Assembly: GCF_019739195.1 (NCBI RefSeq)
Contig: NZ_JAHHDS010000003.1
Span: 1,922,001-1,986,000 of the forward strand
DNA from: Microcella sp.
GTDB taxonomy: Bacteria > Actinomycetota > Actinomycetes > Actinomycetales > Microbacteriaceae
DNA: 64,000 nucleotides
Direction of reading: 5' to 3'
A program made the position numbers and the translations under genes. How positions within the stretch are numbered: the stretch's first letter is position 1; each line of letters starts with the position of its first letter. The notes under the pieces were generated by a model. The model worked only from the letters and a program-made list of their open reading frames with translations, ran no database searches and was not told the DNA's origin. Shown here piece by piece: positions 60,441 through 63,516 of this stretch.

Positions 60441-61541
60441 GTGAGCGGCAGTGCTGAATCGATGCGGCGGCTCGAGCGCAGCATCCGTCGGCGATTGGAT
60501 GCCCGCGCCGCGCTCGACCGGGTCGTGCGCTCCCTGCCCGCCATCGTGCAGATCGTCGTCGCGGCGACGGCCTCGTACCTCATCGCGCGCGAGCTGCTCG
60601 GGCACGATCTGCCCCTTGTCGCCGTGACAGTGACGATCATCTCGCTCGGGCTCGCGCGTGACGCGACACCTCGCAGAGTGGTCGAGACAGTCATCGGCAT
60701 CAACATCGGCATCGCGGTGGCCGCGCTGCTGGTGCAGGTCATCAGCCAGGGCGCCTGGCAGACCGCCGTCATTCTCGGGCTCACGCTCGTGGTCGCGCGT
60801 GCCGTGTCGCCCTCGGCGGCCTTCGCGATCGCGGCAGCGGTGCAGTCGATGCTCGTCGCCGTGCTGCCGGCGCCCGACGGGGGAGTCTTCGCCCGCAGCC
60901 TCGACGGTCTGGTGGGCGGGGTGATGGCGCTGCTCATCACGGCGCTGATACCGCGTTTCGACCTCGTGCGCCGGCGCGGCGAGGCGACGGCGCTCTACTC
61001 GCTCCTCGACCAGGCGCTCACGAGCCTGCACGAGGCGCTGCGCGCCGGCGACTCGGCGGCCGCCGAGCTCGCGCTCGCGCGCAGCCGTCGCACCCAGCGC
61101 CTCATCGACGAGTGGACAACCTCGCTCGAGAGCGCGCGCGGCGTCGCCTCGTTCTCTCCCTGGCTGCGGTCGCGGCGTGCCCGACTCGCGAACGAGGCGC
61201 AGCTGCTCGCGGTCACCGACCTGATCACGCGCCACGTGCGGGCGATCGCGCGTCGAGTCGAGGTCGTCGTGCGGGAAGGCGAGGGTCGCCCCATTCTCGC
61301 CGCGCTCGTCGAGACCACGGGCGAGGTGGTGCGGCTGCTCGGCCGCAGCCACGACGACGAGGCGGCCCGCTACGCCACGCGCGCCCTGGCCGCGACGCTC
61401 GCCGCGCAGTGCTCGCCCAGCGCCGTTGATGGAGTCTCTGACCAGGTCGTCGTCGTGCTGCTGCGCCCCCTCGTCTTCGACGTGCTCGTGCACCTCGGCA
61501 TGACCCCCGACGAGGCCCGAGCGCAGCTGCCCGCCCTCTGA
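60441..61541 (+). CDS. FUSC-family (aromatic acid exporter-like) membrane protein
   Basis: A 366-residue protein: five to six hydrophobic segments in the first half (LPAIVQIVVAATASYLIAREL; LPLVAVTVTIISLGLA; VVETVIGINIGIAVAALLVQVI; SLDGLVGGVMALLITALIP), then a long cytosolic helical domain. Related to FUSC/AaeB-like proteins. GTG 60441 is 16 bp behind ygfZ. Substrate unknown. Confidence 0.82.
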   Translation: MSGSAESMRRLERSIRRRLDARAALDRVVRSLPAIVQIVVAATASYLIARELLGHDLPLVAVTVTIISLGLARDATPRRVVETVIGINIGIAVAALLVQVISQGAWQTAVILGLTLVVARAVSPSAAFAIAAAVQSMLVAVLPAPDGGVFARSLDGLVGGVMALLITALIPRFDLVRRRGEATALYSLLDQALTSLHEALRAGDSAAAELALARSRRTQRLIDEWTTSLESARGVASFSPWLRSRRARLANEAQLLAVTDLITRHVRAIARRVEVVVREGEGRPILAALVETTGEVVRLLGRSHDDEAARYATRALAATLAAQCSPSAVDGVSDQVVVVLLRPLVFDVLVHLGMTPDEARAQLPAL

Positions 61542-61571
61542 GCCGCGCCGGCGCATGCGCACCCCCGCCAG

Positions 61572-61656
61572 TAACAAATCACGGAACACAGGCACCGACC
61601 GCCCACCACTTCGATGTACTACAGCCCACAGGGCGTCAGATCTCCGTGATTTGTGA
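61572..61656. repeat. 85-bp palindrome-ended element, copy 1
   Basis: The left end is TAACAAATCACGGA (61572-61585) and the right end is TCCGTGATTTGTGA (61643-61656), a perfect 12-bp inverted repeat in the inner part. The 57-bp centre does not resemble that of copy 2. A hairpin CCCCTC-CCGCGC-GAGGGG follows just downstream, and the rest of the gap 61542-61749 shows nothing else. Confidence 0.8.
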
Positions 61657-61749
61657 AACCACCCCTCCCGCGCGAGGGGGTTCGCTGAGGCATCCACAAA
61701 GCGATCACTCGGTGCAACCCGTGGCACAGCTAACGGGCACCCTGCGCAC

Positions 61750-62598
61750 ATGCGACTCCTCACCGAGCTGGCCGCCGAGCGCGGCGGACTCATCCCGACC
61801 TATCGGCTACGGCAACGCGGCGTGAGTCCGCGCCGAATTGCGGCCCTCTGCCACGCAGGCCGCCTCTTCCGCGTGCGACAGGGCTGGTACGTACTGCCGG
61901 GATTGCCACGATCGGCGCTTGAAGCCGTCAGGGTTGGCGGCCAGCTCACGTGCCACCACGCACTCGAGGCGCACGGGGTCTGGGTCGTGCGCGATGCGCG
62001 ACTGCACGTCGCGGTCGACCGCGATGCCACTCAGCTACGCACAGCGCAAGACCCGACGCGTCGGCGTGACAGCGCGGATACTCAGGTTCGGGTGCACTGG
62101 CGCCGAGCATCCACTGCCACCACCGCGATCGTCTCTCCTCTCGAAGAGGCCCTTGATGACTACACGCGCTGCGCGCCGCGCGAGCACGTTGCGGCAGCGG
62201 TCGACAGTGCACTTCATCTGGGGATGATGAGCCCTGGCCATCGTCTTGCCCGGGAGTTCGCCGGCGACGGGGTCATCGGAGTCTGCGAATCCGGAATCGA
62301 GACACTCTTTTGGCTTCGGATGCGCCGTCATCGACTGCCGATCTCAAGACAGGTGCGCTTCTCTGGACTCGGTCGAGTCGACTTTCGGATCGGCGAGCGA
62401 CTCATCATCGAAGTCGACGGGGAAGAGTTTCACGACACCGAGTCGACCTTCGAGAGTGACCGGCACCGTGACGCGCAGTTGTCGACCCTCGGATACCGTG
62501 TTCTGCGCTTCAGCTACCACCTGGTGATGAACGAGTGGCCGTTGGTTGAGGCGGCTGTGATTGCGGCAGTCACGCGCGGAGATCATCTGCGCTCGTAA
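61750..62598 (+). CDS. Winged-helix (AbiEi-like) plus DUF559/Vsr-type nuclease-fold protein
   Basis: A 282-residue protein. The N-terminal part is a winged helix of the AbiEi antitoxin-domain type (LIPTYRLRQRGVSPRRIAALCHAGRLFRVRQGWYVLP). The C-terminal part is a DUF559, PD-(D/E)xK-like domain: ESGIETLFWLRMR, VDFRIGERLIIEVDGEEFHD (Asp and Glu-x-Asp of the metal site), HRDAQLSTLGYRVLRFSYHLVMNEW. Such proteins are common, often multicopy, in this family; function unproven. The gene sits alone between two 85-bp elements with matching ends. Confidence 0.82.
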   Translation: MRLLTELAAERGGLIPTYRLRQRGVSPRRIAALCHAGRLFRVRQGWYVLPGLPRSALEAVRVGGQLTCHHALEAHGVWVVRDARLHVAVDRDATQLRTAQDPTRRRDSADTQVRVHWRRASTATTAIVSPLEEALDDYTRCAPREHVAAAVDSALHLGMMSPGHRLAREFAGDGVIGVCESGIETLFWLRMRRHRLPISRQVRFSGLGRVDFRIGERLIIEVDGEEFHDTESTFESDRHRDAQLSTLGYRVLRFSYHLVMNEWPLVEAAVIAAVTRGDHLRS

Positions 62599-62640
62599 GC
62601 CGTGCGATGACCCCGAGCTGGGCCGTGCCCTGCCCATGCG

Positions 62641-62725
62641 TCACACATCACGGAGATTCAGCAGGTCGCTGACCATGGTCGGCCCGGTGTAAACACATCA
62701 ATGCCCGCACTTCCGTGATTTGTGA
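62641..62725. repeat. 85-bp palindrome-ended element, copy 2
   Basis: The left end is TCACACATCACGGA (62641-62654) and the right end is TCCGTGATTTGTGA (62712-62725). It has exactly the same length and the same ends as copy 1, with an unrelated 57-bp centre. It ends 15 bp before the stop of the convergent methyltransferase gene. Confidence 0.8.
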
Positions 62726-62739
62726 CGGGAGGGTCGGGC

Positions 62740-63516
62740 CTAGGGGCGAGGCGCGACCGCAGACCAGTCGACGGTGAGCTCGCCGAGCCGCCAGCGGGCG
62801 ACGCCATCGTGCACGGGCCAGCCGGCGTCGCGCAGCCCGCGCACCGCGGCGATGAAGCGCTGGCGCGGCGAGAAGGTGGCGAGCGGAGCGTGCCGGGCCC
62901 ACTGGGCGTCGAGCTCGCGCAGCAGGTCGTGCACTCCCTCGCCGGGCACGTTGCGGTGAATGAGCACTTTGGGCAGCCTCTCGGCCACGACCGACGGATG
63001 CTCGACCGAGCCCAGATGCAGCGCCAGAGTCAGCGTGCGCGGGCCGTCGGGGTCGAGCGCCACCCAGCTCGCCACGCGTCCGAGCTCGCTGCAGGTGCCT
63101 TCGAGCAGCACGCCTGCTGGCTGCAGTCGAGACCGCAGCAGCGCCCAGGCCTCGGGCACTTCGCCCTCGTCGTACTGCCGCAGCACGTTAGCGGCGCGGA
63201 TGATCGCTGGGCGACCATCCCCCTCGAGCGGTATCTCGAAGCCGCCCTGCCGAAAAGTCAGGCCTTCGCGGGCGAACGGCGCGGCCGCCCGCACCCGCTC
63301 GGGGTCGATCTCGATGCCGACGACGCGTGCCTCGGGCCGCACGCGACGCAGCCGTTCGAGCAGTTCGAGCGAGGTCCAGTGCGCGGCGCCGTATCCCAGA
63401 TCGACAATGAGGGGGTCGGCCGCTCTGCGCAACACCGGGTGCGCGGCGAGCCAGCGGTCCATGCGCCGCAAGCGGTTGACGCCCGTCGTGCCGCGGGTCA
63501 CCCGCCCTTCTGCCAT
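62740..63516 (-). CDS. Class I SAM-dependent methyltransferase family protein
   Basis: A 258-residue protein with the SAM motif VDLGYGAAHWTSLELLERLR (motif I), the acidic residue after strand 2 in VVGIEIDPERVRAA, and AIIRAANVLRQYDEGEV. Substrate unknown. ATG 63516 follows CAGAAT (63523-63528, this strand) by 6 nt. Divergent from gpm, a frequent arrangement in actinobacteria. Confidence 0.85.
   Translation of the reverse strand: MAEGRVTRGTTGVNRLRRMDRWLAAHPVLRRAADPLIVDLGYGAAHWTSLELLERLRRVRPEARVVGIEIDPERVRAAAPFAREGLTFRQGGFEIPLEGDGRPAIIRAANVLRQYDEGEVPEAWALLRSRLQPAGVLLEGTCSELGRVASWVALDPDGPRTLTLALHLGSVEHPSVVAERLPKVLIHRNVPGEGVHDLLRELDAQWARHAPLATFSPRQRFIAAVRGLRDAGWPVHDGVARWRLGELTVDWSAVAPRP

Follow-up and report, generated by a model that had tools for sequence, protein, structure and literature searches.

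Paired palindromic elements around actinobacterial AbiEi-nuclease genes suggest a possible new type of miniature genomic parasite that has its own enzyme

The window, the whole stretch of 64,000 nucleotides from Microcella sp. that was analysed, contains near its end a gene framed by two short palindromic elements, which raises the question of what these elements are and whether they belong with the gene that they enclose. The original prediction, made from the letters of the DNA, described two elements of exactly 85 bp with shared inverted ends and unrelated centres, surrounding a complete gene with an AbiEi-like and a DUF559 domain. Both elements were found where they had been placed (Table 1), and the gene between them matched Pfam AbiEi_4 (E 4e-6) and DUF559 (E 2e-10), in both cases above the Pfam cut-offs. 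The unit formed by the gene and its elements lies between two convergent host genes and holds a single gene, with no partner gene between these two. No terminator-like stem followed by a T run was found in the region 61400-62900 of the window.

Table 1. Features of the window locus (positions in the window)
Feature	Position	Strand	Basis and remarks
Upstream palindromic element, 85 bp	61572..61656	.	Arms TAACAAATCACGGA / TCCGTGATTTGTGA; ends 93 bp 5' of the start codon
Left arm, element 1	61572..61585	+	Arm-sequence search
Right arm, element 1	61643..61656	-	Arm-sequence search
AbiEi-like / DUF559 nuclease fusion gene, 282 aa	61750..62598	+	ORF, Pfam, structure model
N-terminal winged-helix region, about residues 1-62	61750..61935	+	AbiEi_4 at residues 3-50, Foldseek to 6y8q; limits by eye; presumed arm reader
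Middle, AbiEi C-terminal-like domain, about residues 63-170	61936..62259	+	PADLOC AbiEi match 3-167, Foldseek; limits by eye
DUF559 / Vsr-like nuclease domain, about residues 178-282	62281..62595	+	E184, D211, E221, D223, H228; Pfam, profile search, Foldseek, conservation
Downstream palindromic element, 85 bp	62641..62725	.	Arms TCACACATCACGGA / TCCGTGATTTGTGA
Left arm, element 2	62641..62654	+	Arm-sequence search
Right arm, element 2	62712..62725	-	Arm-sequence search

The structure model of the encoded protein shows an AbiEi-like fold joined to a nuclease of the Vsr/EDxHD type that resembles I-Bth0305I. The model was built from 23 aligned relatives and had a mean pLDDT of 93. Foldseek matched it to the S. 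agalactiae AbiEi antitoxin 6y8q (E 2e-6, TM 0.36/0.47, rmsd 8.0 over 208 columns), the low TM over the domains covered presumably reflecting a differing domain orientation. AbiEi profiles of PADLOC also matched the 282-residue protein, and no match to it was found in NCBIfam. For the nuclease part, Foldseek gave the catalytic domain of the homing endonuclease I-Bth0305I (3r3p, TM 0.80 on target), followed by 3hrl and Vsr, and a profile search of PDB sequences retrieved 3hrl (E 4e-8) and 3r3p (E 7e-6). The acidic and histidine residues of this domain, which we take to be the motif named EDxHD, were conserved in nearly all of 146 family members (E184 and D211 in 145 each, E221 and H228 in 141 each), and dN was lower than dS in all 15 of the closest pairs printed, the very closest pair having few changes. 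Because of this conservation and of the low dN, the gene appears to be under purifying selection and the enzyme is very probably active. No transposase domain was detected in the bracketed gene with Pfam or in its structure and, to our knowledge, the Vsr/EDxHD-type nuclease fold is not that of a known transposase.

Matches to the protein were present in all 26 congeneric genomes (2-7 each, some of them partial). In one of these (G001:C1:173800-174554, L070, and L273) the family gene is apparently broken, with a split match and one TGA, and TGCAGGCACAA arms adjoin it. Distant relatives were observed in a 4.9-kb faecal phage record (MT839994.1, 3254-4132) and in Tsukamurella plasmids (NZ_LR134454.1, 56254-57135).

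The end motif was not restricted to the window locus. Searching the source genome (G000) for the 14-mer end with up to 2 mismatches gave 15 matches, compared with 1 for a reversed control pattern, so the elements are not due to chance. Twelve of the 15 matches pair into 6 elements of 84-85 bp and 3 are unpaired; besides the bracketing pair there are thus four dispersed elements (in L009, L010, L011, and L012). With up to 1 mismatch, end matches were present in 6 of 26 congeneric genomes, the reversed control giving 0 in all 26, and one of these genomes (G007) had 25 matches and 14 elements of 84-85 bp in its fetched regions. An attC-like recombination site or a cassette, which had been suggested for the window, finds no support here: there is a single gene in the window unit, and most elements (4 of the 6 in the source genome and 12 of the 14 in G007) stand apart from the gene. 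No two of the centres among these 6 and 14 elements were clearly alike, and the window arm family therefore shows no sign of recent copying. The centres are indeed unrelated, as predicted, for this arm family in the source genome; the description did not hold for some sister families, the centres of which are partly alignable (those of G790 and a second family of the source genome).

The dispersed elements also speak to the possibility of a defence or toxin-antitoxin device, in which the AbiEi-nuclease fusion would act against invaders and the palindromes would be operators or self-marks. The AbiEi profiles of PADLOC match, and among 72,556 plasmid and 50,697 phage records 4 and 1, respectively, carry relatives, all of them below 60% identity. 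The window unit, however, consists of one gene with no partner, and the stand-alone dispersed elements would have no evident role in such a device, which we consider very improbable.

The anatomy of the elements is that of conserved ends held at a nearly fixed distance. Among the elements analysed, 31 of 36 measured 75 bp in G790 and 18 of 22 measured 74 bp in G678. Sequence conservation is largely confined to ends of about 12 bp, with a nearly free middle; in G790 the conserved stretch is longer on one side. The mean z score for folding of the centre was -0.5 in 25 Microcella-type elements, -0.4 in G790, and -0.1 in G678, and these values near zero indicate no strong structure beyond the arms. 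The sole Rfam match (E 0.42) was below the gathering score and at chance level, and structured centres were rejected as a candidate. Six of the seven single arms tested did not fold on themselves, CTCCACAATTCAGGAG being the one that folds. In G678 (L329-L346) we observed two outer-arm types before AATGCAGGAG, TGTCGAA and CAGA-like, which largely go with lengths of 75 and 74, respectively. In another genome, three sites (G096:C1:187557-187620, 2507386-2507449, and 2756004-2756067) carry nested perfect or near-perfect palindromes with CAACTCAGGA-type arms at a spacing of about 22 bp on each side, unlike the fixed-centre elements.

Placement was determined for 106 elements with gene calls from a simple in-house script: 100 are intergenic (40 between convergent, 48 between tandem, and 12 between divergent genes) and 6 lie inside called genes. 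Elements were enriched between convergent genes: such gaps account for 40 of the 106 elements, but for 18 of the 173 other gaps that measure 100 bp or more in these regions. Target-site duplications of 3, 4, 5, 6, 8, or 9 bp did not exceed the null maximum in the 106 elements. Flank matches of 2 bp exceeded the null at one offset per set (8 of 25 and 18 of 81) and may be palindromic arm dinucleotides. The elements inside called coding genes are all 75-bp elements (L331 13197-13272, L346 3093-3168, L347 3191-3266, L351 3005-3080, L353 13172-13247, and L368 12359-12434), and two of these six sites recur in two or three species of one genus (g53).

Bracketing by such elements recurs across the protein family. 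Searches at the level of the genus, the family, and the phylum, together with named genomes, gave 169 loci, and 146 distinct full-length relatives were kept after leaving out duplicates, short flanks, and partial genes; these 146 are kin and not independent. In two of the scans up to 6 and up to 2 candidates were scored per genome, and their counts are lower bounds. Each gene was submitted to a four-arm test, in which the best match among two upstream and two downstream arms was scored (maximum 66). In a first run, 82 of the 146 genes scored above the 95th and 57 above the 99th percentile of 291 re-paired flanks. With a cut-off of 59/66, chosen after this first run, 75 of the 146 family genes were bracketed; among 869 re-paired flanks there were 8 passes, and among 387 other genes, taken from element-rich regions after removal of three family genes by hand, there was 1. 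In 71 of the 75 bracketed loci the upstream and downstream elements differ in length by at most 1 bp; across family loci, element length ranges from about 45 to 99 bp, and the arm sequence also differs between relatives. Seventy-one family genes fell below the cut-off, some of which may have been without elements from the outset. Before this test, several of 30 fetched relatives had been seen to have, on both sides, palindromes with arm sequences of their own. The named bracketed members belong mostly to the Microbacteriaceae and also include Gordonia, Williamsia, and a Corynebacterium-like bacterium. A further bracketed relative (L149, JABBOD010000002.1) lies on a contig labelled as an Acidobacteria MAG, which is possibly a misbinned actinobacterial contig.

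These controls bear directly on the simplest alternative, namely that the elements are ordinary transcription terminators or generic intergenic palindromes that happen to lie near family genes. Their enrichment between convergent genes speaks for it, but other genes of the same element-rich regions were bracketed in only 1 of 387 cases, the arms differ from gene to gene, and no T-run stem was found in 61400-62900 of the window. Terminators as a full explanation are refuted by the bracketing controls, and we give this alternative hardly any credence. The repeat is therefore not a general one devoid of any link to DUF559 genes; the link between elements and DUF559/AbiEi genes, proposed from a single locus, turned out to be a property of the family.

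Arm sequences and proteins vary together to some extent. The Spearman correlation between arm and protein similarity was 0.246 (n=71), the maximum of 300 permutations being 0.123. Calculated per domain, it was 0.248 for the winged helix, 0.230 for the middle domain, and 0.179 for the nuclease; that the first two track the arms slightly better than the nuclease is suggestive only. The arm-boundary script chose other palindromes upstream of four loci (L042, L045, L046, and L067), the element of L042 being identified by other scans.

Several arm types form dispersed populations that go with one particular gene. The pattern AATGMAGGA-N40-70-TCCTKCATT occurred in 47 of 398 genomes of the family, with up to 43 copies per genome and 0 for the reversed controls in the rows listed; within one genus (g53), the copy number ranged from 0 to 43. 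Of the 25 genomes in which at least 5 copies were counted, 24 were used, and the 30 best family-gene loci in them were examined. A family gene adjoined the same arm type, with 1 mismatch allowed per arm, in 17 of the 24 genomes (on both sides in 15 and on one side in 2), and in 8 of these 17 a paralogue was also inspected and was not beside this arm type. Two genomes (G077 and G684) have 14 copies each and no family gene at E 1e-10, and their populations are apparent orphans. The remaining five (G061, G566, G581, G079, and G690) do have family genes, the single locus inspected in each not being bracketed by this arm type; a one-sided 85-bp match in G566, with one mismatch per arm, was left out of the count.

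A second arm pattern, CAACTCAGG-N44-70-CCTGAGTTG, was present in 17 of 199 genomes, with 0 for the control, and one genome (G135) contains both populations, each with its own bracketed gene (L301 and L444). The source genome also harbours a second, independent system, in which a gene (G000:C3:2056783-2057574) lies between two 68-bp elements and four dispersed copies measure 67-68 bp. This system (G000:C3:2056561-2057689, that is L443 1062-2190, with L439-L442) has a paralogous gene and GTTCGCAACTCAGGCTGA-like arms, and the centres of most of its dispersed copies share an inner ATGTG...CACAT-like pair.

We compared the window gap between congeners. In three of them (G007, G018, and G008) the gene is present with palindromic elements on both sides, so that the gene was not seen at the same place devoid of elements. 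As the protein changes, so do the arms and the length: CAAATCACGGA (79 bp) in the source genome and G007, CAAATGACGGA (68 bp) in G008, and CAAGCGACGGA-like arms (about 67 bp) in G018. The gap is nearly empty (4-21 bp) in six congeners (G023, G020, G017, G019, G009, and G010), and no interrupted target site was visible where these host genes lie so close together, as in G023, G020, and G019. In five others (G013, G022, G016, G001, and G025) a single palindromic element with different arms was recognised by eye; the one in G001 is a stand-alone element with CCAAATGCAGGC-like arms.

Elsewhere in these genomes, 5 of the 6 elements of the source genome had an element of G007 at the orthologous place. 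Among 27 orthologous pairs with the same arms, 4 of which lie inside coding genes, the length was equal within 1 bp in all 27, and the mean identity of the centres was 0.65, compared with 0.56 for shuffled centres. The arm identity in such pairs is inflated by the search pattern, the lengths being free within about 15-19 bp. Mapping between genera found an element in the corresponding gap in 8 of 10 cases from g53 to Microcella and in 8 of 8 in the reverse direction, the mappings that lacked one being L333 to L078 (a G007 gap) and L383 (2954) to L080. Differing arm types were found in three cross-genus gaps (L332/L383 with L080/L086; L344 with L071/L084; and L384 with L074, which is less tightly mapped), a fourth (L341 with L073) being ambiguous. 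Of the 29 family loci that could be read at the tRNA-adjacent gap (L332/L383 with L080/L086), 3 have an element, namely those of G135, G077, and G012, the last of another arm type; the source genome has none there. Many elements occupy orthologous positions in different species, which shows slow turnover; this sharing is in part a product of ascertainment, since the regions compared were fetched because they bear elements, and it may be due to hot spots, to vertical descent, or to in-place rewriting.

These gaps bear on the possibility of a homing-like gene drive, in which the nuclease cuts elements of an older arm type and repair replaces them with those of the nuclease gene or with the complete gene unit. 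In favour of it, the nuclease domain resembles that of a homing endonuclease, one intergenic gap can contain elements of different arm types depending on the species, the outer-arm type in G678 largely goes with the exact length, and some orthologous loci carry one outer-arm type in G678 and the other in G790. Against this, the two elements flanking the gene are both intact and the gene interrupts no recognisable site, two elements of G678 (L329 and L333) combine one arm of each outer type, and the flanks at shared gaps are too diverged to tell a replacement from a second insertion. We regard this explanation as improbable, and classical homing into an interrupted site is not what the two intact elements of the locus suggest.

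Further information on how the elements spread came from six near-identical pairs, 122-362 bp apart, which were a selection from listed elements and not a systematic sample. In two pairs (L434 and L437), the shared block reaches 6-12 bp beyond the element core on either side, and the flanks are unrelated. Three others (L385, L435, and L436) show one break 2-11 bp from the element end, the other end of the block running into the flank, and L438 has no break near the element end. In 5 of the 6 pairs the copied block thus has at least one break close to an element end, at a distance of up to about 12 bases. In addition, the members of an inverted pair 2 kb apart in G790 have in common the element and about 20-30 bp on one side. 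Elements can therefore be copied as units, often nearby.

We think it moderately probable that the elements are REPIN-like miniature replicators and that their cognate enzyme is the bracketed AbiEi-nuclease, whose cutting at the arms would drive their copying. The data show that genes of the family are recurrently bracketed, that the two elements of a locus match in length, that dispersed populations go with particular genes, that catalytic residues are conserved, and that copied blocks break near element ends; that the protein would bind the arms and cut there, and that this cutting would drive the copying, is inferred. The AbiEi part would recognise two inverted arms at a fixed spacing, and recognition by the first domain is a natural guess because AbiEi promoters contain inverted repeats to which the AbiEi proteins themselves bind (PMC7319586). 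The nuclease would then nick or cut at the arms, and repair or replication would copy the element to a new or an already occupied intergenic site, with machinery that may be that of the host. The same binding upstream of the gene would probably autoregulate it. Co-evolution of the arms and of the specificity of the enzyme would provide each gene with its own arm sequence, its own element length, and possibly its own dispersed population, which could outlive its gene. The idea of a miniature transposable unit carrying its own endonuclease, put forward for the window, comes close to this reading. Counting against the reading are the centres of the window arm family, no two of which are clearly alike, the slow turnover, the lack of target-site duplications of 3 bp or more, the nuclease fold, which is not known from transposases, the family genes below the cut-off, the pair L438, the element-rich genomes with no family gene or with an inspected gene not bracketed by their arm type, and the low TM of the AbiEi match.

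The main rival is a regulatory or chromosome-organising network that serves the host, in which the AbiEi part binds fixed-spacing palindromes, the flanks of its own gene are autoregulatory operators, and the nuclease is accessory. Consistent with it are the promoter binding of AbiEi-family antitoxins just mentioned, the position of the upstream element, whose end lies a median of 102 nt 5' of the start codon across the 75 bracketed genes, the frequent occurrence of elements at orthologous positions with a length conserved within 1 bp in same-arm pairs, and the different arms found in different genera at some orthologous gaps. However, the downstream element is equally part of the pattern, the copy number varies from 0 to 43 within one genus, and positions are not universal, as the tRNA-adjacent gap illustrates. 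Such a network would also have no need to keep the catalytic residues, and the near-identical copies that break near element ends and the populations that lack a gene suit a replicator better. We consider the regulatory network rather unlikely.

More tentatively, and with our doubts somewhat outweighing our confidence, we propose that the elements and enzymes form a new class of replicator that is convergent with REPIN-RAYT: a homing-endonuclease-like nuclease, built on the scaffold of an AbiEi antitoxin, would spread palindromes of locked length and would also rewrite them, in part where they stand, so that the copies in a genome track the specificity of one bracketed gene. If this is true, actinobacterial AbiEi-nuclease fusions now annotated as antitoxins or DUF559 proteins would be replicator enzymes. 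In that case many DUF559 proteins that now lack a known role would gain a function, a homing-endonuclease-like domain and an antitoxin fold would be linked to the spread of elements, and natural pairs of proteins and target sites would become available for studies of DNA recognition. With 146 distinct genes and as many as 43 copies of a single arm type in one genome, the material is large enough for direct tests of specificity, co-evolution, and copying.

No report linking DUF559/AbiEi genes to palindromic elements was found among the matches listed in the open-access literature. The paper that names the MTES_1575 REase describes, in the part available, a Vsr-type domain in another architecture. 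We see in the data signs of a very small genomic parasite, of a type not yet described and equipped with an enzyme of its own, and the element-gene system appears to depart from each of the known families tested in a defining property.

MITEs are short, non-autonomous elements of near-fixed length with terminal inverted repeats, and the present elements share all four of these traits. They differ from MITEs and from DDE insertion sequences in that no target-site duplication of at least 3 bp accompanies them and that the bracketed gene has no transposase domain. With the EDxHD or Vsr-like homing endonucleases (I-Bth0305I), the protein shares the fold of the catalytic domain and the conserved acidic and histidine residues, but no intron, intein, or interrupted target was seen, the nuclease is fused to an AbiEi-like part, and the palindromic flanks are intact. 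The AbiEi antitoxins of type IV toxin-antitoxin systems (S. agalactiae AbiEi, Rv2827c) likewise have a winged helix and a C-terminal domain (6y8q), and inverted repeats precede the gene as they do in abiE promoters according to excerpts of PMC7319586. Here, in contrast, the single-gene window unit has no AbiEii-type partner, a nuclease is fused to the AbiEi-like part, and the elements are also found downstream and dispersed.

The closest comparison is with REPIN-RAYT systems. As far as the available text of PMC3116915 goes, REPINs are short extragenic inverted doublets with a preferred spacing, which are dispersed, form clusters and tandem copies, are cognate to an adjoining gene, and co-evolve with it, and the REPs that compose them are themselves palindromic. 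The present elements resemble what is described there in being extragenic dispersed inverted doublets with a preferred spacing, in having a cognate gene beside some of the copies, in co-evolution, and in clustering. They are unlike REPINs in that the bracketed gene we examined is an AbiEi-nuclease fusion and not a Y1/HuH transposase, that 6 of the 7 single arms do not fold on themselves, compared with the palindromic REPs of that text, and that the length is nearly fixed within a family while the centres diverge. Because the gene is not a RAYT and most of the single arms tested are not palindromes, the elements are not REPINs by membership. The logic of the system nevertheless resembles that of REPIN-RAYT: REPIN-kind palindromes are tied to RAYT transposases in the accessible portions of PMC3116915, and the same logic of one gene for one element family is found here with a gene that has no transposase domain.
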